The notes under the pieces were generated by a model. That model was not told the origin of the DNA. It was given only the letters and a program-made list of their open reading frames with translations, and ran no database searches. Positions 2,777-15,420 of a stretch of DNA of 43,208 nt are shown piece after piece (the stretch's first letter is position 1; each line of letters starts with the position of its first letter). The translations under genes were made by a program, and so were the position numbers. The DNA lies in contig CAMDED010000057.1 of assembly GCA_945893365.1 (NCBI GenBank), positions 1 through 43,208 of the forward strand, written 5' to 3'. The DNA is from Candidatus Sulfopaludibacter sp. SbA3 (lineage in GTDB: Bacteria; Acidobacteriota; Terriglobia; Bryobacterales; Bryobacteraceae).

Positions 2777-3862
2777 ATGAATACGATGCAAGGATGGCGA
2801 CTGACGGCCGTCAGTTTTTTTGTTCTCGGAGTTGCCAGCGTCGATGCCGGAACGTACACATTGACGGACCTCGGAACGCTCGGCGGCAACTACAGCGGGG
2901 CGTTTGGAATCAACGACGCCGGGCAGGTTGTGGGCTATTCATGGACTACGGGCGACGTCTTCCACGCGTTTCTGTACTCCGACGGCGTGATGTCGGACCT
3001 CGGCACCCTAGGTGGCATTTTTAGTCAAGCGCATGGAATCAACGACGCCGGGCAGGTTGTGGGTGTTTCAGACCTCGCGGGCGACAACTCCTACCATGCC
3101 TTTCTGTACTCCGGTGGCGTGATGTCGGACCTTGGCACGCTCGGCGGTACCTATAGCTTCGCGAATGGAATCAACAACGCCGGGCAGGTTGTAGGTCTTT
3201 CAGGCATTGCGGATAACGATAACCAACACGCCTTTCTGTACTCCGGCGGTGTGATGTCGGACCTTGGCACCCTCGGCGGCTTCGGTAGCAACGCGATTGG
3301 AATCAACGACGCCGGGCAGGTTGTAGGTTCAGGTATTACGGGCAACGATGACCAACACGCCTTTCTGTACTCCGGCGGTGTGATGTCGGACCTCGGCACC
3401 CTCGGTGGAGCCTTTAGCCAAGCGCAGGGAATCAACAACGCCGGGCAGGTTGTGGGTTATTCAGATATTACGGTCGACGACTCCTACCATGCCTTTCTGT
3501 ACTCCGGCGGTGTGATGTCGGACCTCGTGGATCTCGGCACCCTCTTTGGGGGCAGAGTCCCCGCGATTGGAATCAACGATGCGGGGTACGTCGTCGGTTC
3601 CGGGTTGAGTGCCTTTCTGTATGACGGGAACGCGATGACAGACCTGAACACTTTCATCCCGAACGGGTCCGAGTTCACTCAATTGGGGTTCGCAACCGCA
3701 ATAAATGACCTCGGACAGATCGTAGGCTATGGCCTAACGGTATCCGGCGAGACGCACGCATTTCTCTTGACCCCGAGCGACGTGCCGGAGCCGGCTACGA
3801 TGCTGCTCTTCGCGTGCGGTCTGATAGGCCTTGCGGCGCGGTGCGCGCGAACCCGAATATAG
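2777..3862 (+). CDS. Secreted HAF-repeat protein with PEP-CTERM sorting signal
   Basis: Extracellular protein of 361 aa with no known catalytic motif. After a signal peptide (MNTMQGWRLTAVSFFVLGVA, processed near VDA) come about six tandem repeats of 43-44 residues with the pattern LGTLGG...GIN(D/N)AGQVVG...HAFLYSGGVMSD, the HAF repeat. The tail is VPEPATMLLFACGLIGLAA followed by RCARTR: a PEP motif, hydrophobic stretch and basic end, which is the PEP-CTERM signal handled by exosortase/archaeosortase-type enzymes. AAGGAG lies six bases before the ATG at 2777. The exosortase is not in this window. The role is likely at the cell surface or in extracellular polymer, by family inference only. Confidence 0.92.
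   Translation: MNTMQGWRLTAVSFFVLGVASVDAGTYTLTDLGTLGGNYSGAFGINDAGQVVGYSWTTGDVFHAFLYSDGVMSDLGTLGGIFSQAHGINDAGQVVGVSDLAGDNSYHAFLYSGGVMSDLGTLGGTYSFANGINNAGQVVGLSGIADNDNQHAFLYSGGVMSDLGTLGGFGSNAIGINDAGQVVGSGITGNDDQHAFLYSGGVMSDLGTLGGAFSQAQGINNAGQVVGYSDITVDDSYHAFLYSGGVMSDLVDLGTLFGGRVPAIGINDAGYVVGSGLSAFLYDGNAMTDLNTFIPNGSEFTQLGFATAINDLGQIVGYGLTVSGETHAFLLTPSDVPEPATMLLFACGLIGLAARCARTRI
2867..3531 (+). repeat. In-gene tandem repeats, period about 129-132 nt
   Basis: Five successive 43-44 codon units of the HAF gene are highly similar at DNA level as well as protein level; stretches such as CCTTTCTGTACTCCGG recur almost unchanged in each copy. This points to recent duplication or gene conversion between units, and to possible copy-number variation between strains. 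The units are coding and in phase, not CRISPR repeats. Confidence 0.85.
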
Positions 3863-3870
3863 GCGCCCCC

Positions 3871-3899
3871 TTGCGTTGCGTGCTGAGATTCGATATACA
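3871..3899 (+). promoter_or_regulatory. Predicted sigma-70-type promoter of the Oar-like receptor
   Basis: TTGCGT (3871-3876), a 17-nt spacer, and TATACA (3894-3899). Transcription would begin at about 3906, so the ATG at 3910 would have almost no leader. This favours 3910 over the in-frame ATG at 3901, which lies within the promoter. Confidence 0.5.
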
Positions 3900-3909
3900 T
3901 ATGCACACT

Positions 3910-6900
3910 ATGCGCTCGCTACGAGTAGTATCCCTGTCGATTCTCGCCGCCATAGCGGCCTTCTCTCAAACGTTCACCGGCTCCATCTCGGGTATTATCA
4001 CCGACCCCGCGGGAGCTGTCGTCGCCGGAGCTAACGTCGTCGTTACGGACCTCCAGCGGAACACGTCCTTCCGCACGCAGACGAACGATACGGGTTTTTA
4101 CATCGTGTCGCAGCTCCAGCCCAGTACCTTCAGCGTTTCGGTGGAGCAGGCGGGATTCAAGAAGCACACCCGCGACAATCTGCCTATCACGACGCAGGAG
4201 CGCGCGACCGTCAACATCGTGCTCGAGATCGGCGCGGTGAGCGATCAGGTTTCCGTCACCGCGCAAGCGCAATTGATCGAGACGGGCACGTCCACGCTGT
4301 CGGGCCTGGTGGAGAATAAACGTATCCTCGACCTGCCGCTCAACGGGCGCAACATTTTCTCGCTGGCGGGCCTGGTCCCAGGCGTCTTCTTCGTTCGCCA
4401 AACCAGCGGCGTCGCCGATAGCTTCACCGCCAACCGCTTTATCGTTAACGGCGGACAGGAATCGACGTCGGACATCATTCTCGACGGCGTGACGGCGACG
4501 GTTTCGCACAACATCACGAACATTCCGGCGGTGAGCGCGATCCCGTCGGTTGAGGGAATACAGGAATTTCGAATTCAGACCAATGCGTTTGCCGCGGAAT
4601 ACGGCCGGTCGGGCGGCGGGCTGGTGACGCTGGTCACGAAGTCGGGAACGAACTCGCTGCACGGCAGTCTGTTCGAGTTCCTCAGGAATTCGAAGCTCGA
4701 CGCCAACAACTTTTTCACGAACCGGGCGGGGCGGCCCCTGGCAAGCTTCAAGCGCAATCAGTTCGGCGCTTCGGCCGGCGCCCCGATCTCGATCCCGAAA
4801 CTCTACAACGGCAAGGACAGGACGTTCTTCTTTGCGGTCTATGAAGGACAGCGCATCAAGAGCGCGGGAATCGCGCAGCACACCGTGCCCACCGCCCTCG
4901 AGCGCGTAGGCGATTTCACGGAAACTCTGACGGCAACGGGCCAGGTGCGCCAGGTTTTCGATCCTTTTACAACTCGCCCCAACCCCGCGCAGCCCGGCCG
5001 CTTCATGCGCGATCCCTACCCGGGTAACCGAATTCCAGCCAGCGGGATCAGCCCCGTCGCGCAAAAGGCGCTTAGCTACTACCCGCTGCCGAACGCCCCC
5101 GGCCTGCCATTTACGCGGCAGAACAACTTCGTGGTGCAGGACGCTTACCCGCAGCCTCAGGACCGCATCGAGTTCAAGGTGGATCACAATTTTTCAGACC
5201 GCCGCCGCATGTTCGGACGGTACACGTTCATGGATTCGATTTATTCGAAGCCCAATTATTGGAAGAACATTGCCGATCCGGGCTGCTGCGACCCGATGAA
5301 TCAGCGTCTGATGAACGGCGCAATCGACTATACGGAGAACAGGGGCTCGAACACGGTAATCAATATCCGCTACGGCTTGGGCCGGGTCTCGGGGAACCGG
5401 GTTCCCTGGAGCTCCACGTTCGATCCGGCGAACGGATTCAAGGTAGCGAGCATGGGCCTGCCGAGCTACATCGACAACATCTCGGACCATCAGGTGTTCC
5501 CGACCATCACGATTCAGGACTACACGCAGCTTGGCCCGAACGGCGGCGACATTTATTTCATGGGCGACACGTCGCACTCGTTTATCGGCACGGTGTCGCG
5601 CGTACAGGGACGGCACTCGATGAAGTACGGCGTGGACGCGCGCTTCAACTACGTCAACTACGGCCAACTCGGCACACCCAGCGGCGGCTTCGATTTCACT
5701 CGCGCCCAGACCCAGGGGCCCGACCCGCGCACGCCTACCGGCAATGGCGGCGTGGGCTTCGCCTCCTTCCTGACCGGCTTCGGCACCGGCACCATCTCGC
5801 ACCAGATCCGGCCAGCCAACTACAACCGCTATTTCGCTTTCTACGTTCAGGACGACTTCAAGCTCAACTCCAAGCTCACGATCAACGTAGGCTTCCGCTG
5901 GGACTTTGAAGGCGGCGTCACGGAGCGCTTCGACCGCATTACCGGGATCGACCCATTCGCGAAGAATCCGCTCGCGGACCAGCTCAAACTGGACCTCCGC
6001 GGCATCGCGCAGTTCGCCGGCGATTCACTTGGCCGTCGCGGCGCGCGCAATGTGGATGGGAAGCAGTGGAACCCACGGTTCGGCATCGCGTATCAGCTGA
6101 ATGAAAAGACGGTTGTACGAAGCGGCTACGGAATCTTCTTCGGCCTGCCGTCATACGCCGCGAGCTCCGGTTATACGGGAGGCGCGTTCGCCTCCTCGAC
6201 GACATGGATCTCGTCCAGGGACGGAGACGGGATCACGCCGTCGAACCCCTGGACGGACCCGTTTCCGACCGGATTCTCCCTACCGCTGGGCTCGAAGGCG
6301 GGACCTAACGCCGCTCTCGGTCAGGGCTTAAGCGGAGCCTATGCGCCCTCGCTTCGCCCGATGTACAACCAGCAGTGGAATTTCACGATCCAGCGATCGC
6401 TGCCCGGTAATTCGGTATGGGAAATCGCCTACGCCGGGAATAAGGGAACGAGACTCTCGCAGACGTATCAATACAACCAGCTCGATCCGAGCCTGCTTTC
6501 GCAGGGCGACGCGCTTCTGCAACAGGTGCCGAACCCATTCTTCGGCATCATTCCCGCAAACCTCGGCTTGGGCACGCCTACCATCCAGCGAGGCAACCTG
6601 CTACGTCCCTATCCGCACTATGGCGGCGTCTCCGCGGTGAACGGCGGCTATGCCAATTCCAACTATCACGCCTTTCAGACCCGCTATGAAAAGCGCTTCT
6701 CCCTCGGCCTGAGCTTCCTCGCATCCTACACGTTCTCGAAGACGTTCACGGATGGTTCGGACGGGCTGTGGAACCGGGCGGACCTGATCCGCTCCTACTA
6801 CTGCCGCTCTTGCGAGAGGGCTGTTTCGTCCTACGATCAACCTCATCGCCTGGTCCTGAACAGCACCTACGAGCTCCCCTTTGGCCGCGGCAAGTCGTTC

Positions 6901-8909: not shown

Positions 8910-9884
8910 ATGGCCGAATTCCGACGACGCTTTTTCGCTATTGCCGCCGCTCTCTCACTGGCCCGCGCCGCCTGCGGAGCGGATTTCCCGCTGCCTTCCG
9001 GAGCGCAGCCGGTGAATCTGGGACCGGTGGGCGCCGGGGAAGGTCCGGTGTGGAGTCCCGCGGGTGAGCTTTTCTTCACTGGCGGGAACCGGATTACGAA
9101 ACGCGATGCAAGCGGCGCCGTGTATGTGTTCCGCTCCCCTTCGGGCGGTGCAAACGGACTGCTCTTCGACAGAGAGGGCCGTCTGGTGGTGTGCGAATCG
9201 TCGAACCGCCGCATCACGCGCACGGAACGGGATGGAGCCATCACGGTCCTCGCAGACAATTTCGAAGGGAAACGTTTCAACTCGCCGAACGATCTGACGA
9301 TTGATTCGAAGGGCCGGATCTATTTTACCGACCCGCGTTACGGGAAGCGCGACACCATGGAAATGCGCGGCCGCGACGGCCGTCCGGTCGAAGGGGTCTA
9401 TCGGATTGACGCCCCTGGGCGAGTGTCGCGCATCATCGCGCGCGAGGTGGAGCGGCCGAACGGCATTCTGGTTTCGCCGCGAGACGAATTGCTGTACGTC
9501 GCGGATAACAACAACAACACGGTTGGGGGCGCGCGAAAGCTGTGGAGCTTCCATCTGCTGTCGGATGGCGCGATCGACCCCGCGAGCCGCAAGCTGATCT
9601 TCGACTGGAAGACGGGGCGCGGTCCCGACGGCTTTAAGATGGACGAATTGGGGAGGCTTTACGTCGCGGCCGGGCGCACGAAGGCCGCGCCGCCCTTCGA
9701 AGACGCGGGCGAGTTCAAGGGCGGCCTATACGTCTTGTCGCCAGAAGGCGCGCTGCTGACGTTCGTACCCATCCCGACGGATGAGGTGACGAACTGCGCG
9801 TTCGGGGGCGCGGATCGCAAGAGTCTTTTTCTTACCGCCGGGGGAACGCTCTGGAGCATCCCGGTTACGACTCGCGGCCGGTGA
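8910..9884 (+). CDS. SMP-30/gluconolactonase-family protein, secreted
   Basis: Predicted calcium- or zinc-dependent lactonase of the six-bladed propeller SMP-30/LRE family, 324 aa. The start at 8910 gives a proper signal peptide (MAEFRRRFFAIAAALSLARA, cut near ACGA); an upstream in-frame ATG at 8829 would add a non-signal stretch. Expected ligand and substrate residues are present: Glu44 (GEGPVW), Asn127 (SPND), Asn184 (RPNG) and Asp240 (GPDG). The exported form suggests hydrolysis of sugar lactones in the periplasm. It is divergent from the amidase gene across about 100 bp. The exact lactone is unknown. Confidence 0.88.
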   Translation: MAEFRRRFFAIAAALSLARAACGADFPLPSGAQPVNLGPVGAGEGPVWSPAGELFFTGGNRITKRDASGAVYVFRSPSGGANGLLFDREGRLVVCESSNRRITRTERDGAITVLADNFEGKRFNSPNDLTIDSKGRIYFTDPRYGKRDTMEMRGRDGRPVEGVYRIDAPGRVSRIIAREVERPNGILVSPRDELLYVADNNNNTVGGARKLWSFHLLSDGAIDPASRKLIFDWKTGRGPDGFKMDELGRLYVAAGRTKAAPPFEDAGEFKGGLYVLSPEGALLTFVPIPTDEVTNCAFGGADRKSLFLTAGGTLWSIPVTTRGR

Positions 9885-10120
9885 AGAACGGAGCGTTTTT
9901 CCAATCGAAGATCCTGAAATGCGGGTTCGTTTCCAATCCCAGCGTGATTCCAAAAATCGGTGTTGTTGTCGCTGAAGGCGTCTTCCTTTCGTTGAAATCG
10001 GATTTCGCGCGTGGTGGAAGGCAAGCGACGAAAGACGATCGCCTGCCCCGCCGCCTGCCGATTGCAACAGTTGTTTCATTCCAAGTCCTTGGCTCCCACT
10101 CGTCCGCCATTCGCATGTGG

Positions 10121-10126
10121 TAGACT
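10121..10126 (+). promoter_or_regulatory. Candidate -10 box for the csm operon
   Basis: TAGACT lies 24 bases before the cas10 ATG, preceded by TG one base upstream (extended -10 style). The same hexamer precedes three other genes here. No convincing -35 box is seen. The 266-bp gap 9885-10150 holds no recognisable gene, and no HD-domain gene precedes cas10. Confidence 0.35.
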
Positions 10127-10150
10127 AAGCGATTCGCGAGCCCTAGCTGG

Positions 10151-11575
10151 ATGTCCGAACAATTATTGCTCCAAGGTCAACTCTTAGGCATTGAAGAGTT
10201 CCTGCTGACTCCCTCCGGCATCTCGGACACGGACGGCGAGGACCTTCTCCCAGGCAGGTCCATGTGGGTGGCGCTGCTCTGTGAAGTGCTTCCGCGCGCC
10301 TTGTTGGCAGAGCTCGGGCTGCCGCGCATCATGTTGGGGTCGAGTGGAGGCGGGCAGTTCCTTCTACTGTTACCTGAAACTGCGCGGGCCGCCGCGGAGT
10401 CGGTTCTCGAAAGCGCCGCCGCCCAGATTGCGACCCTGGGGTCGAGCAGCCTCCGTCTGATTTGGAGCGGAACCGAAAATCTGGGCGATTGGACGGTGGT
10501 CCGCAAACGTCTCAACGACGAGTTGCGCCGAAAAAAGGACGCTCCTCTCGCCGCGGGCGTGCAAGGCGTTTTCGAGGCCTTTGACGCGGCCGCTCCGAAG
10601 CCCGGTGCGGAGTTTACGGCGCACCTTGGAGCAAACATTCGCCAGGCCTCTTCCGTGGGATGGTCTCCCGAGTCTCCGGCGCGGATTCTGATCGGCGAGG
10701 GAAAGCATAACTGGAAGCTTACGCCCAATCTTTCCCTGGAAGGAATCACGCTGGCCCGGCACGCGGCTCCCAGCGACGAGGGGAGCGGTCCGGCGGACCT
10801 GGCCACGCTCGCAGCCAGAGCCCAGGGAAGGCAGATCTGGGGCGTCTTGCGCGGCGACGTGGATAGTTTCGGAATCCGCCTGCGGCGTGTGGCCTCCATC
10901 GAAGAGCACGTGCAGATCTCCGTACTCTACAAACAGTTTCTTGAGAACGAGTTAGAGGTGCTGTGCTCCCTGCCTGAGTTTTGGCGGAAGGTCACCATAC
11001 TCCACTCTGGCGGCGACGATTTCGCGGTTTTCGGCGCATGGGACGCCCTGGTTGCGCTGGCCCGCGAGATGCAGCGTCTTTTCAGCCGTTTCACGGAGGA
11101 AAATCTCAAGGATTTTCCGGGAGCGGAAGGGAAGACGATCACCATGGCGCTCGCCGTGGCTCCAGAGGTAAATGCCTCTCTGTCTAGCGTTTACAGCGCC
11201 GCTGGAGCGGACCTGGAGCGGGCGAAGACGACCGGACGCGACTGTTGCTACCTGCTGGGACGCACGCTTGAATGGAAGCGGCTTTCCGACGCGGCCGATC
11301 TGAAGGATACACTGCTGAGGATGGCCGCCCAATTTCGCTCCTCCAAGCAGTTCCTGTTCGAGCTGCGCGGACTGTACGGCAAGCCGGGTTCGCAGAAAAT
11401 CTGGCGGTTTCAGCGCCGGCTCAGCGCCATTTTGAGCGGTTCGCGGGACCGAGAGGTTCAGAAGATGCGGGCGCGCCTGGTGAACGAGATCATCGGGCGG
11501 TACAAGACGGAAGTAAATTTGAGGCCGGCCAGTCTGGTGGCGCTCGAGTGGGCGCGGCTGGCGAGCGAGATTTGA
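10151..11575 (+). CDS. csm1: Cas10/Csm1-like large subunit, HD-less, GGDD present
   Basis: Large subunit of a type III CRISPR effector, 474 aa against roughly 750-850 for usual Csm1. The protein begins at Palm1: GIEEFLL (the usual GIQ-FI strand) at 13-19 and GSSGGGQFLLLLP at 63-75. Palm2 carries LRGDVDSFG (Asp236, Asp238) and HSGGDDFAVFG, with GGDD at 287-290, then the ERAKTTGRD segment. A helical C-terminal domain follows. The N-terminal HD DNase domain and the zinc-binding cysteines between the palms are absent. By family knowledge GGDD makes cyclic oligoadenylate when target RNA is bound, so that activity may remain while DNase is lost. It is the first gene of the five-gene operon; csm2 begins 20 bp downstream. 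Confidence 0.9.
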   Translation: MSEQLLLQGQLLGIEEFLLTPSGISDTDGEDLLPGRSMWVALLCEVLPRALLAELGLPRIMLGSSGGGQFLLLLPETARAAAESVLESAAAQIATLGSSSLRLIWSGTENLGDWTVVRKRLNDELRRKKDAPLAAGVQGVFEAFDAAAPKPGAEFTAHLGANIRQASSVGWSPESPARILIGEGKHNWKLTPNLSLEGITLARHAAPSDEGSGPADLATLAARAQGRQIWGVLRGDVDSFGIRLRRVASIEEHVQISVLYKQFLENELEVLCSLPEFWRKVTILHSGGDDFAVFGAWDALVALAREMQRLFSRFTEENLKDFPGAEGKTITMALAVAPEVNASLSSVYSAAGADLERAKTTGRDCCYLLGRTLEWKRLSDAADLKDTLLRMAAQFRSSKQFLFELRGLYGKPGSQKIWRFQRRLSAILSGSRDREVQKMRARLVNEIIGRYKTEVNLRPASLVALEWARLASEI

Positions 11576-11595: not shown

Positions 11596-12108
11596 ATGGC
11601 ACAAGAGCAGGAAACAAAAACCCGGGAGAACCGCCCCCCGCGCGAAGGCCGCGGACCGGGCGGACCGGGTGGAGAAGGCGGCGCGCGCCGAGGCCCGGAC
11701 AGGGGCGGCGATCGCGGCGGCGACCGCGGCGGCGATAGAGGATACGACAGGGGGCGTCCCGAGGGCGCGCCGGAGATCGACATCGAAAAGCTGATCGGCG
11801 ACAGCCTGTATCTCGACAATCAGGCGCACGCCGTCGTCATTCGAATGCGCGACATGGACTCGGGGACGAAGAGTCAACTCCGCCGTCTGTATAACGCCGT
11901 GAGGCGGGCCTGCCGCGCGCCGGAGAACGAGCGCCAACACGAGTTCGTGATGCTGCGCGCGCGCCTCGCGTACACCATTGCCAGGCATTCCCTGCGCAGC
12001 CTCGACCAGATCGAGCGGCTGCTGTTGCAGGTGACGCGCAAGAACGACCAGCGCGGATATGAACGTTTCAAGGACCTGTTCGAGGCGATCGTCGCCTACA
12101 ACGAATAG
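11596..12108 (+). CDS. csm2: Csm2-like small subunit with RG/GD-rich N-terminal tail
   Basis: Small helical subunit of the type III-A complex, 170 aa. Residues from about 60 match Csm2: IDIEKLIGDSLYLDNQAHAV, TKSQLRRLYNAVRRACR, EFVMLRARLAYTIARH and a final FKDLFEAIVAYNE, close to the family's ending. Typical Csm2 proteins have about 120-140 residues. The extra length is residues 16-57, made almost only of Arg, Gly, Asp and Pro with repeated DRGG units, which is predicted to be disordered and resembles RGG RNA-binding tails. In the complex Csm2 lines the filament next to the Csm3 backbone. Confidence 0.88.
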   Translation: MAQEQETKTRENRPPREGRGPGGPGGEGGARRGPDRGGDRGGDRGGDRGYDRGRPEGAPEIDIEKLIGDSLYLDNQAHAVVIRMRDMDSGTKSQLRRLYNAVRRACRAPENERQHEFVMLRARLAYTIARHSLRSLDQIERLLLQVTRKNDQRGYERFKDLFEAIVAYNE

Positions 12109-12136
12109 TCCGCCGAAACGCGAACAAAGGGGAACC

Positions 12137-12970
12137 ATGAGCGCTCACACGCTGAAAACCGAACTGAAACTGATCGGCAAGTTGATCCTGCAGGCGGAAC
12201 TGCATTGCGAAACCGGGCTCCACGTGGGCGCGGGAAAGGGATCGCTCGAGATCGGCGGCTCCGACAATCCGGTCGTCAAGGACGCCTTTGGCCGTCCCTA
12301 CGTCCCCGGCAGTTCTTTGCGAGGGAGGCTGCGTTCGCTTCTTGAACAGGCATCGGGGCTGGCGGTTCCCTCCGAGTTGGTCTACATCTCGAAGCGCAAA
12401 GGCCAGGAGGTCCGCATCCATCAGAGCGACCGCCCGGACGACGAGATCTGCCTGTTGTTCGGCCGCGCGCCCGGGCGCATGGATCGCGTGCAGGGCGAGC
12501 CGCTCGACACCAATCACGCGACGCCCGCGAGGCTCGCGGTTTATGACGCGCCGCTCGATCCGGAAAGCATTACGCCGCAGATGCGCGAGAACCTCGACGA
12601 CGAACTAACCGAAGTGAAGAGCGAGAACGCGATCGACCGGATCACTTCGCAGGCGAATCCGCGCACGCTCGAGCGCGTGCCCGCCGGGGCGCGATTCAGG
12701 GTGCGGTTCGTGCTTGACATGCTCTGCGAAGAGGATTCGGTGCTGCTGGCGCGTCTGGTGGAAGGCCTCCGTTTGCTTGAGGACGACGCCCTCGGCGGCG
12801 GCGGCTCTCGCGGCAGCGGACGCGTCCGGTTTGCTTCCCTGAAGTTGGGATGGCGCAACCGGGCATACTATTCCACGGGCGGATCGGAGAAGGAACTAGC
12901 CTCGGGAGCCGATCTTGCGGCGCTGCAGGCTCAGATCGACGAGGCGGGCGATTCGTTCGTTCGCGAGTAA
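12137..12970 (+). CDS. csm3: Csm3-like Cas7 backbone RAMP, catalytic Asp kept
   Basis: Repeating backbone subunit that holds the crRNA and cuts target RNA, 277 aa. The N-terminal RAMP fold shows TGLHVGAGKGSLEIGGSDNP, with Asp43 at the place of the catalytic Asp known from Staphylococcus and Streptococcus Csm3. PYVPGSSLRGRLRSLLE follows, then TEVKSENAIDRITSQANPR, LERVPAGARF and the glycine-rich LGGGGSRGSGRV near residue 218. All family landmarks are present, so target-RNA cleavage is predicted. The ATG at 12137 follows AAAGGGGAA; an upstream in-frame ATG at 12059 lies inside csm2 and is not used. csm4 starts six bases after its stop. Confidence 0.92.
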   Translation: MSAHTLKTELKLIGKLILQAELHCETGLHVGAGKGSLEIGGSDNPVVKDAFGRPYVPGSSLRGRLRSLLEQASGLAVPSELVYISKRKGQEVRIHQSDRPDDEICLLFGRAPGRMDRVQGEPLDTNHATPARLAVYDAPLDPESITPQMRENLDDELTEVKSENAIDRITSQANPRTLERVPAGARFRVRFVLDMLCEEDSVLLARLVEGLRLLEDDALGGGGSRGSGRVRFASLKLGWRNRAYYSTGGSEKELASGADLAALQAQIDEAGDSFVRE

Positions 12971-12976
12971 GTAAGA

Positions 12977-14311
12977 ATGACCCCGGGATTCGTTTTCAAG
13001 CTGCGGCCGAACGGTCCATGGCGCATCGGACCGAATGACGGCGATCGCCAGAGGGCGGAGCTCGTCTACCACAGCGACGCGCTGTACTCGGCCATCACGG
13101 GCGCCATGCGGGATTTCGGCCTTCTCGATGCCTGGCTCGATGCGACCGCGCGTGCCGGCGATGGGTCGGCAGTCCGGTTCAGCTCGTGTTTTCCGTGGAT
13201 TGGAAAAACCAGGCTTGCCCCTCCGCCGAAACATATCTGGCCAGCTATGTTTTCAACGAAACTGCGCTGGAAAGGCGCGCGGTACATCCCACTCGCGCTG
13301 GTGGCGGACCTGCTCGCCGGGAAGGCTCCCGAGGATAGCCGGTGGATGGTGGATGGACCGAGCGGTTGCCTGCTCCCCGCGGGGAGCCCTGCGGGTCCGT
13401 TCCGCATGGCCGTTCGTTCGAGCGCGTCGGTCGACCGCTTTCTCGGTGGGGTTGCCGTGCATTCCGCCGCGTGCGTGGAATTCGCCCCCAACGCCGGTTT
13501 GTGGGGCGCCGTCTCGTTCGCGGATCGTGAAGCGGCGGAAAAGTGGTCCGGTCCCGTCAAGGGGGTGATCCGCCTGCTGTGCGATTCCGGTTTTGGAGGC
13601 GGACGGTCGAGGGGTTGGGGAAAATCCGACAGTCCCGAGTTCCGCGACGGGTTTCTCCCCGGATTGATTCTCCGGCCGGCGGAAACGGCAGCGACGGCCG
13701 AACGAGCAACGGCAACTGAACTTTCAGGGGCTGCCGAATCCGCGGCGGCGATCGAGCCAATGGGTGCGGTCGAATCTGGCACTGCGGCCCAACCGGAACC
13801 GGCAGGCGAACCTGCGGTGGCGATCGAACCGGCGGCGACCGAACCAATGGGAGCGGTCGAATCCGGCACTGCGGCCGAACCGGCAATGGCGCCTGCACTT
13901 GCAGGGGCTCCCGAATCCGCAACGGCGACCGAACCATCGGACGCGGTCGATTTCGGAACCGTAGCCGAATCCGTGGCGGCAGTCGAATTTGCACCGGAGA
14001 CTCGCGCGGGGAACGCCCGAGGAGAGACGGTTCACTGGCTGCTATCCCTGTTCACGCCCGGCGCGGCCGACGGCGTGGATTGGCGCCAAGGCAGCTATTC
14101 CCTTGTGACGCGCGCCGGACGCGTGGAGAGCAGCGTGCGTTCGGGTGACGAGAAAAAACGGCTGAATATGGTGGAGGAAGGATCGGTACTGGTTGCCCCC
14201 GGCCGGTTGCTCGGGGCGGCCGTCGATGTGGCGCCCGATGGATTCCCGCATCCCGTGTACCGCTTCGGCTGCGCGCTCTCCATTCCCGTGCCCCGGCGGG
14301 TGACGCCATGA
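12977..14311 (+). CDS. csm4: Csm4-like Cas5 RAMP with large low-complexity insertion
   Basis: Csm4 caps the 5' end of the crRNA and contacts Cas10. It is 444 aa, against about 300 in typical members. The N-terminal half has the HSDALYSAITGAM segment and the glycine-rich GFGGGRSRGWGK loop at about 205-215. The C-terminal half (HWLLSLFTPG, NMVEEGSVLVAP, HPVYRFGCALSIPVP) matches the Csm4 end. Between them residues 235-347 are an Ala/Glu/Pro/Thr-rich linker with duplicated blocks. Removing it leaves about 330 residues, a normal Csm4. The last four bases overlap csm5 as ATGA, so translational coupling is likely. Confidence 0.87.
   Translation: MTPGFVFKLRPNGPWRIGPNDGDRQRAELVYHSDALYSAITGAMRDFGLLDAWLDATARAGDGSAVRFSSCFPWIGKTRLAPPPKHIWPAMFSTKLRWKGARYIPLALVADLLAGKAPEDSRWMVDGPSGCLLPAGSPAGPFRMAVRSSASVDRFLGGVAVHSAACVEFAPNAGLWGAVSFADREAAEKWSGPVKGVIRLLCDSGFGGGRSRGWGKSDSPEFRDGFLPGLILRPAETAATAERATATELSGAAESAAAIEPMGAVESGTAAQPEPAGEPAVAIEPAATEPMGAVESGTAAEPAMAPALAGAPESATATEPSDAVDFGTVAESVAAVEFAPETRAGNARGETVHWLLSLFTPGAADGVDWRQGSYSLVTRAGRVESSVRSGDEKKRLNMVEEGSVLVAPGRLLGAAVDVAPDGFPHPVYRFGCALSIPVPRRVTP
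13679..14017 (+). repeat. Repeat-built insertion inside csm4
   Basis: In-frame low-complexity DNA encoding Ala/Glu/Pro-rich sequence. The block encoding EPMGAVESGTAA occurs twice with only a few base changes, at about 13757 and about 13844, an offset of 87 nt (29 codons). Shorter, more diverged blocks (AESAAA, PESATATEP, AESVAAVE) flank it. The pattern fits growth by tandem duplication, and the length is always a multiple of three. Confidence 0.8.
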
Positions 14312-15420
14312 GATACCGAGTGACCTGTCTCACTCCCGTGCTGGTTGGCGATGGAAACAGACTTTCCCCGATCGACTATATGGTGTGGAAAGATCAGGTC
14401 AACGTGCTCGACCAACATCGCATTTTCCGGCTATTGGCGAAGGGTCCGAGGCTCGATGGGTACCTCGCGCAATTGAAGAAGGCGGACAAACTGGATTTCG
14501 CGTCGTGGGGAGGGTTTGCGCAGAATTTCGCCGGCAGACGAATTCCCTTCGAGCACTCCTCGGCGGCGGCGAATTGGGCCAGGGTTGCGGGAGACGCTCT
14601 GTTTATTCCCACGTTCGCGTCGGGTGCGTCCGGTCCGTACCTGCCGGCGACCGCTGTCAAGGGCGCTCTGCGGACGGGCATGCTGTTCGCAAGCGCAAAG
14701 CCCGGCATGCTTACCGACTTAAAGCAGCGTCTGCAGGGACCGAAGCCGCCAAGGCGCGCTGCCGACGCCGCCGAGGAACAGGCGCTGGGACAGGCTGGCG
14801 TGGACCGCATGCGCGCCGTTGCGGTGGGCGATTCGGCTCCCGTGGGAAAGGACGCCTTCAAGGTTTACCAATTGCGGGTTTCGACTCTACAGGCGAAGGG
14901 CGCGGACGCTTATACACTCGGTTGGAAACAGACTTCTTTCGCCGAGATGGCCCCGCCGGGAACGGTGTTCGAAGGGAACTGGCGGGAGCGCGCATTTTTC
15001 ACGCAGCCGGAAGTGCGCCGCGCGTTGCGCTGGCCTGAGAAACTCGACCGGGTCTCGATCTTCTCGGCCGCCAACGAGCACTCCGGGCGCGTGTTGGACC
15101 TGCACAAGAAGTACGCCGCGTGGACGGGTCTCGATGCCTTGGCCGCAAGCGTCGCCGAGCTCGAGTCGCGCAGATCGGCGGCCCAGGCTACGGGAACCGC
15201 ATGCCTTCTTTCGCTCGGCTGGGGCGGCGGACTGATGTCGAAATCAGCCTGGCCGGACGCGGCCAACGAAGACTTGCGCGCGGTGCTCAAGAGCTTCCCA
15301 TTCTACAGCCGTCCATTGAACACCGGGCTGCCGTTTCCCAAGACGCGCAGGATTGTGTTCATGGCGGACAAGCCGGCTGCCCTCCCGGGATGGGTCCTGC
15401 TCGAAGTGGGCCAAGGCTGA
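14308..15420 (+). CDS. csm5: Csm5-like Cas7 RAMP
   Basis: Subunit at the head of the Csm filament, near the crRNA 3' end, 370 aa, normal for Csm5. It starts RYRVTCLTPVLVGDGNRLSP, a typical Csm5 opening. It carries the RAMP element YLPATAVKGALRTGM at 111-125 and a glycine-rich LGWGGGLMSKS near 300. The C-terminus NTGLPFPKTRRIVFMADKPA is also family-like. Csm5 in known systems recruits host nucleases that trim crRNA. It is the last certain gene of the operon; no csm6, cas6, cas1 or cas2 follows. Confidence 0.88.
   Translation: MRYRVTCLTPVLVGDGNRLSPIDYMVWKDQVNVLDQHRIFRLLAKGPRLDGYLAQLKKADKLDFASWGGFAQNFAGRRIPFEHSSAAANWARVAGDALFIPTFASGASGPYLPATAVKGALRTGMLFASAKPGMLTDLKQRLQGPKPPRRAADAAEEQALGQAGVDRMRAVAVGDSAPVGKDAFKVYQLRVSTLQAKGADAYTLGWKQTSFAEMAPPGTVFEGNWRERAFFTQPEVRRALRWPEKLDRVSIFSAANEHSGRVLDLHKKYAAWTGLDALAASVAELESRRSAAQATGTACLLSLGWGGGLMSKSAWPDAANEDLRAVLKSFPFYSRPLNTGLPFPKTRRIVFMADKPAALPGWVLLEVGQG

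Follow-up and report, generated by a model that had tools for sequence, protein, structure and literature searches.

One question raised by the csm operon of Candidatus Sulfopaludibacter sp. SbA3 is why its Csm2 protein begins with a long stretch rich in Arg, Gly, Asp and Pro, and what such a stretch could do for a Csm complex. The window analysed is contig CAMDED010000057.1, positions 1-43,208, that is, the whole stretch of 43,208 nucleotides; below, the family is Bryobacteraceae, G000 is the window's own genome, and other G and L numbers denote genomes and loci of relatives. An initial annotation had proposed that an RG/GD-rich disordered tail precedes an otherwise normal Csm2 core and could, in the manner of RGG tails, capture RNA or cluster complexes, an interpretation that as a whole is partly supported. 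The reading preferred here, to which we give a probability of roughly 0.4, is that selection maintains the tail as a disordered arm through which Csm2 contacts RNA, on a core Csm RNP of the family. The features on which the argument rests are as follows.

10116..10126, forward strand: putative promoter-like TGTGGTAGACT box (TGTGSTARASTGA-like) ahead of cas10, read by eye
10151..11575, forward strand: cas10/csm1, 474 aa, without the HD region but with Palm2 GGDD (profiles, structure model)
11596-12108, forward strand: csm2 ORF, ATG start, 170 aa
11596..11772, forward strand: N-terminal tail of csm2, residues 1-59 (59 aa; translation, composition, pLDDT)
11773..12105, forward strand: core of csm2, residues 60-170 (111 aa), six-helix Csm2 fold (profiles, structure model)
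12131..12970, forward strand: csm3 with the GGSDNPVVK (RNase Asp) motif (TIGR02582, 199.8 bits)
12977..14311, forward strand: csm4 (TIGR01903; Csm4_C PF17953)
13743..14006, forward strand: Ala/Glu/Pro-rich repeat insert in csm4, three ~87-nt units (repeat family in window)
14308..15420, forward strand: csm5 (TIGR01899, PADLOC)

Elsewhere in the window, an ORF at 97-657, found by eye, is presumably the C-terminal part of an IS4-type transposase, and the protein encoded at 2777-3862 contains about five ~132-nt repeats (DLGTLGG...GINDAGQVVG) and is, we assume, HAF-type with a PEP-CTERM-like end.

The translated tail runs from an MAQEQE head through RPPREGRGPGG into five DRG units, and 37 of the 42 residues at positions 16-57 (88%) are Arg, Gly, Asp or Pro (G18, R10, D5 and P4, together with E3, A1 and Y1). 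The remainder of the protein is an ordinary Csm2: Pfam Csm2_III-A (PF03750) matches residues 76-168 at 44.2 bits against a cut-off of 24.8, NCBIfam TIGR01870 and six PADLOC Csm2 models also match the core, and the core model scores Z 11-13 against known Csm2 structures, with L. lactis Csm2 (6xn3_D) as the best fold match (Z 13.2, rmsd 2.2 over 107 residues, aligned residues 62-170). In the structure model of the window protein the tail has pLDDT values of 40-57 in 10-residue blocks and lacks secondary structure, compared with 81-94 for the core, and it is predicted to be disordered, as the initial annotation had expected. An RG-rich tail on a normal Csm2 core is thus confirmed, with RG present in 83 of 86 distinct tails of relatives and disorder modelled for the window protein alone.

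Conservation was assessed in 110 csm2 loci, 30 of them from family genomes and 80 from named records, most of which bear Bryobacterales, Bryobacteraceae, Solibacter or Acidobacteria in the title; the two locus searches overlap in genomes, and counts are given for the 86 distinct Csm2 proteins among these loci, with start codons picked by a script that put ATG plus a Shine-Dalgarno-like motif first. An N-terminal tail is present in all 110 loci, so that close relatives keep it, and its length is 32-165 aa (median 64.5), compared with a core that measures 111 aa in 85 proteins and 110 aa in the remaining one. The R+G fraction of the tails is 0.22-0.56, with a median of 0.46 versus 0.17 in the cores, I+L+V+M+C make up a median of 2% and at most 11%, and aromatics reach no more than 4% of any tail. 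Charges nearly balance over the tail as a whole, a polyampholyte with a median net charge of +2, and the net charge over the last 50 tail residues lies between +1 and +5 in 86/86, never negative. Through most of the tail, order and length vary and it is mainly composition that is kept, the longest tails having, by eye, an extra Ala/Pro/Glu-rich stretch ahead of the RG part. The recurrent motifs are RG (83 of 86), GDR (71), DRG (68), RPPR (60) and strict RGG (49). A plain RGG-domain label is weakened by these figures: RG is nearly universal, but the strict form is found in 49/86, aromatics are at or below 4% and the median net charge is only +2.

For comparison beyond the family, 297 genomes of the phylum were searched with the Pfam Csm2 profile, which matched in 14, three of them family members; ten of the remaining 11 were readable, no csm2 ORF having been located in L152. 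None of these ten carries, by eye, a long RG-rich tail, their N-termini being short and polar, as in MNFNRQGQNYQGGAGGRGDSSAAG of L154, or absent. By this comparison the RG arm seems to be an addition to Csm2 that is peculiar to the family. The earlier statement that no such tail was known holds for RG tails on Csm2 among the matches listed from open-licence literature, where titles and the beginnings of abstracts report neither such a tail nor a family-wide Csm, but it does not extend to N-terminal extensions as such, which are not new: T. onnurineus Csm2 (6mur_B, 187 aa) has an extension of ~54 residues, its core likewise beginning near residue 54, a likeness of core position, not of composition.

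The complex that bears the tail is conserved in its own right. The order cas10-csm2-csm3-csm4-csm5 is found in 73/73 loci of at least 6 kb, with all five genes in 65, and the remaining 8/73 end, by position, ahead of csm4 or csm5. A box similar to that at 10116-10126 recurs, by eye, ahead of cas10 in many relatives, and the TGTGSTARASTGA-like box of the window is perhaps the operon promoter. Shared-neighbour clustering of 80 loci found no flanking gene family common to csm loci apart from cas10-csm5, and a search for a conserved effector gene beside the operon likewise ended without one common to the loci. A gene for an ExeA-like AAA ATPase, named by eye, was seen in 18/80 csm loci, for example after csm5 at L089:9900-10832.

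Csm3, Csm4 and Csm5 of the window each score above the curated NCBIfam cut-off. Cas10 reaches 156.4 with TIGR02578, below the cut-off of 170, as is expectable because ~240 N-terminal residues are missing. Compared with Csm1 structures, the Cas10 model shares the fold from Palm1 on (Z up to 33.3, 444 residues), and because the first residues of the model already fall on residue 213-263 (mostly 230-249) of the Csm1 chains, it is the HD region that is missing. This is not peculiar to the window, as Cas10 is 471-506 aa long in 78 full-length copies of relatives. Two catalytic motifs have had different fates. Csm3 keeps GG[AS]DNPV in 79/79 distinct copies, the Asp of the GGxDNP motif being presumably D33. 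In 76 distinct Cas10 copies, Palm2 reads GGDD in 66, AGDD or GGDE in 2 and a degraded form in 8 (GGND, GGDG, EGDG, AGDG, GSSD or DTAD), and on a quick Csm3 plus Csm2-core tree with 73 rows, parsimony requires six or more changes to account for the 8 losses. By motif, Palm2 is intact or an effector-associated variant in 68/76 copies of the family. For comparison, in excerpts of a Cas10 survey (PMC11229360) AGDD and GGDE variants occur with effectors and an HD nuclease is present in 65% of III-A Cas10, and the 2025 classification puts predicted-active Cas10 at ~97% overall in the part available (PMC12669027). With loss of the cyclase motif recurring, cOA signalling looks dispensable. Given this, the missing HD region and an Asp motif that never varies in Csm3, the activity of the family Csm most likely to be under selection is, on the motif pattern, guided RNA cleavage.

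CRISPR effectors are normally patchy and fast-evolving; csm2 was found in 109/121 family genomes and in 0/80 others in the same search. In 24 genomes Csm3 (mean distance 0.20) comes near RecA (0.17) in conservation, and Mantel correlations with RecA are r 0.40 for Cas10 (16/2000 permutations) and r 0.34 for Csm3 (21/2000). Among genomes of multi-member genera, the nearest row is a congener in 13/15 cases for Cas10 and 10/15 for Csm3. RecA is duplicated in the family, and its paralogues blur it as a marker. Vertical descent of the csm complex is supported by these distances, if not proven at every node. Two full-length RecA genes lie in tandem at G000:C26:2568-3530 and 3714-4670, and other members have paralogues as well.

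A further question is where guides for such a complex could come from. No CRISPR array is present in the window, and the five flagged in loci L031-L110 are all tandem repeats without unique spacers. Across 131 family genomes, Cas6 (PF10040, any match counted, with two or more in several genomes) was detected in 112, including G000:C165, and Cas1 (PF01867) in 71; of the two three-copy array patterns, TTGRAAC matched in 24 genomes and RTTGARRC in 57; they see only these repeats in three copies and in some positives rest on a single match, and the backward control of RTTGARRC matches in 5 genomes. In 121 genomes csm2 co-occurs with cas6 (both in 99, csm2 alone in 10, cas6 alone in 5, neither in 7; Fisher p=1.6e-4), such that 99/109 csm2 carriers have Cas6; the association with cas1 is weak (65, 44, 3 and 9 in the same order; p 0.03), and with arrays there is none (50, 59, 4 and 8; p=0.54). 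These p values are optimistic, as related genomes are not independent. Related Cas6 is also present in five csm2-negative family genomes, and G065 lacks both csm2 and cas6. The other Cas6 proteins read diverge faster than Csm2 (mean distance 0.47 vs 0.10 for the core), G058:C7 being an outlier of the set at 33% at best, and Cas6 and Csm2-core distances correlate (r 0.60, 1/2000, 9 genomes).

Neither cas1 nor either three-copy array pattern was detected in 37/109 csm2 carriers, 34 of which have cas6, a claim of array absence limited to what the patterns see. A two-copy pattern with other type III handles matched in 39/131 genomes and, among the 37, once each in G024, G038, G042, G048 and G061, about as often as its backward control, which matched five times in 4 of these 37 genomes. 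Up to ~6 kb on each side of Cas6 in 20 of the 112 Cas6 genomes, no array was found and neighbours were not shared; synteny with the five neighbours of the Cas6 of G000 was absent except for one weak sulfatase match. By hand, Cas6 was found adjacent to an array in G009:C13 and at distances of 1.6 kb in G204:C42, 3.5 kb in G075:C9, 4 kb in G003:C13, 7 kb in G028:C3 and G058:C7, 8 kb in G056:C13 and 9 kb in G060:C534, several of these genomes holding more than one Cas6. The G058:C7 array falls just beyond the flank that was read around its Cas6. In the csm2-less G009:C13 (L143), a related Cas6 lies beside two arrays with the repeat GTAGAAATACCTTCCCCGATTCGGAGGGGATTGAGAC, which offers a lead to the Cas6 substrate. 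Two candidates for a local guide were set aside: GATTGGAAAC-like stretches ahead of cas10 in 9881-10150, seen by eye and considered as a possible mini-array or guide RNA, recur in 1/72 relatives' upstream regions, and scans for repeat stem-loops (two patterns) or handles (L111-L130) at csm loci gave one chance-like handle match. In the window's own genome an array and cas1 lie on contig C204, its repeat looking I-C-like to us, and because of them crRNA supply in trans is possible there.

An ordinary crRNA supply for the family Csm is possible, with array patterns matching in 50/109 carriers and some Cas6 genes within 10 kb of an array. A bolder proposal is that Csm and Cas6 have been domesticated into a core-gene RNP whose Csm2 arm clasps RNA and which, independent of its own CRISPR memory, would cleave or hold RNA through non-array guides, or through other systems' arrays in trans, in housekeeping or standing defence. 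We regard this as unlikely, its probability having been lowered because some family Cas6 genes lie near arrays. The family genome F-183 is described as reporting no CRISPRs in the portion available (PMC8759368), which is no evidence for an array-free Csm.

Csm2 is present in several copies along a single Csm complex. In the preferred reading, several flexible, weakly positive R/G/D arms, one per Csm2 copy and presumably exposed to solvent, would hang off the Csm backbone and engage RNA through weak, multivalent contacts, be it the target, the neighbouring transcript or RNA-rich particles such as ribosomes. Such contacts could raise residence time and the capture of target or transcript. The carrier would be a core Csm RNP that lacks the HD DNase, for which cOA synthesis would be dispensable and which retains the Csm3 RNA cleavage motif, its crRNA ends presumably being cut by the Cas6 encoded elsewhere in the genome. 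According to the excerpt available of PMC13060164, Csm2 of S. marcescens and L. lactis stays mobile as long as no target RNA has bound. Against this reading stand the near charge balance and few aromatics, which make the tail weaker than classical RGG domains, the base composition considered below, the chance of an ordinary crRNA supply, the 10/15 congener count for Csm3, and the presence of similar tails on ribosomal protein uS3 in genomes without csm2.

The uS3 tails came to light in a strict DRGGDRG codon scan of the window's own genome, which would miss less regular RG tails and which hit six places: three in csm2, two in the uS3 C-terminal tail and one in an 89-aa frame. The uS3 gene at G000:C169 ~10329-11333 (L199, L219, L229) encodes a ~130-aa C-terminal tail with DRGDRGGDRGGDRG, near the Csm2 tail motif, and a long uS3 C-tail, mostly with R/D/G-rich stretches, is present in 26/26 family copies read, including those of the csm2-less G009 and G065. 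Like the Csm2 tail, it combines the DRGGDRGGDRG motif with low-complexity composition; unlike it, it sits on the ribosome and exists without Csm2. DRG counts of the two proteins give a raw Spearman of 0.44 (p 0.037, n=23), three other measures are not significant, and covariation beyond phylogeny is absent (partial Mantel 0.01, 842/2000), on which grounds co-evolution of the two tails was rejected. The likeness does not demonstrate a link; as a sequence pattern it suggests that the family uses R/D/G arms on RNA-facing proteins.

The main rival sees in the tail an arm on which a protein docks, with a housekeeping RNase, a helicase or a ribosomal protein as possible partners. A precedent exists in S. 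epidermidis, where Csm5 requires a segment predicted to be disordered, IDR2, for PNPase binding and stimulation according to the available part of PMC9762709, and the short motif RPPR recurs in 60/86 tails. Against docking stand a tail in which composition is mainly what is kept and order and length vary, and the lack of any neighbour gene family common to the loci beyond cas10-csm5, and we consider docking possible but doubtful.

Unlikely as well is a tail that acts as a linker for solubility or spacing, or that arose by GC-driven low-complexity expansion and has hardly any specific role. Within csm2 of the window, GC is 0.80 in the tail vs 0.62 in the core, 11704-11736 inside the tail is a tandem array with a period of 12 nt, and base shuffles within codon positions average 0.74 R+G+D+P, reaching the observed 0.88 in 13/5000, so that codon-position base composition alone explains much of the enrichment, whereas free base shuffles reach the observed value in 0/5000. 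Furthermore, the Csm complex has a second variable-length segment, of other composition, in the csm4 insert (21-306 aa in 55/68 relatives having both anchors), and past codon 23 the DRG parts of the tails of the window and its congener G002 diverge in residue order and length. Composition of this kind is rare in the window, as R+G+D+P of at least 0.80 over 42 aa occurs in 1/403 stop-to-stop frames of at least 60 aa, and that frame is csm2. The decisive evidence that the tail is not chance is its conservation in 110/110 loci, to which may be added the median of 2% I/L/V/M/C, the last-50 charge that is never negative, and the five DRG units with their different Arg codons (AGG, CGC, CGC, AGA, AGG). 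A by-eye comparison of the first 23 codons with G002, with 9 synonymous and 0 non-synonymous differences, points the same way for the tail head only.

Condensate formation, in which RG-rich phase separation would concentrate Csm complexes and which the initial annotation had raised, seems very unlikely: the tail is RG-rich and predicted disordered, and multi-copy Csm2 would make it multivalent, but aromatics at or below 4%, near-balanced charge and strict RGG in 49/86 tails speak against it. Lastly, the idea that the start codon is misassigned and the true protein begins at the core has nothing in its favour beyond a near-core start in 11/110 loci and the weakness of the Shine-Dalgarno-like GAGG (by eye) 11 nt upstream of the window csm2 start, and it is rejected as having practically no chance of being right, there being no in-frame ATG, GTG or TTG between tail start and core in the window (the next Met is residue 84, within the core), no start codon in the last 30 codons ahead of the core in 99/110 loci, and a tail head kept despite synonymous divergence from G002.

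With the RNA-contact arm retained as the preferred reading, the system can be set beside those already described. Like the type III-A Csm of L. lactis, E. italicus, S. epidermidis and T. onnurineus, it has the cas10, csm2-csm5 operon, the Csm2 core fold, the Csm3 RNase Asp motif, Palm2 GGDD in most copies and the Cas10 fold from Palm1 on; unlike them, it has an RG/GD-rich tail, lacks the HD region, is near-fixed in its family, has Cas6 elsewhere and has no array or cas1 in the window. The S. epidermidis Csm5 IDR2 is likewise a disordered segment on a Csm subunit, but in the available part of PMC9762709 it is a predicted, positively charged region at residues 310-320 on which PNPase binding depends, compared with a 32-165 aa RG-rich arm on Csm2 here. 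The array-less subtype III-G also has no adaptation module beside the effector, and crRNA in trans is suggested for it in the part available of PMC12669027. In III-G it is HD that is retained, while Palm catalysis and the Cas7 Asp are lost; here the reverse is found, with HD absent, the Csm3 Asp kept and Palm2 mostly kept, and membership of that subtype was rejected. The Cas10 survey, as excerpted from PMC11229360, also contains 133 type III loci that lack both HD and an effector, and the family Csm resembles these in combining a cyclase with a missing HD and, as judged from shared-neighbour clustering, in having no recognised effector next to the operon. For those loci signalling to another locus is proposed; in the family Csm, cyclase loss recurs. 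Present in 109/121 genomes, HD-less, with recurrent cyclase loss and, in 37/109 carriers, with neither cas1 nor an array found, the family Csm offers a natural test of type III use without DNA cleavage or signalling, and bears on whether CRISPR complexes can become core cell machinery.
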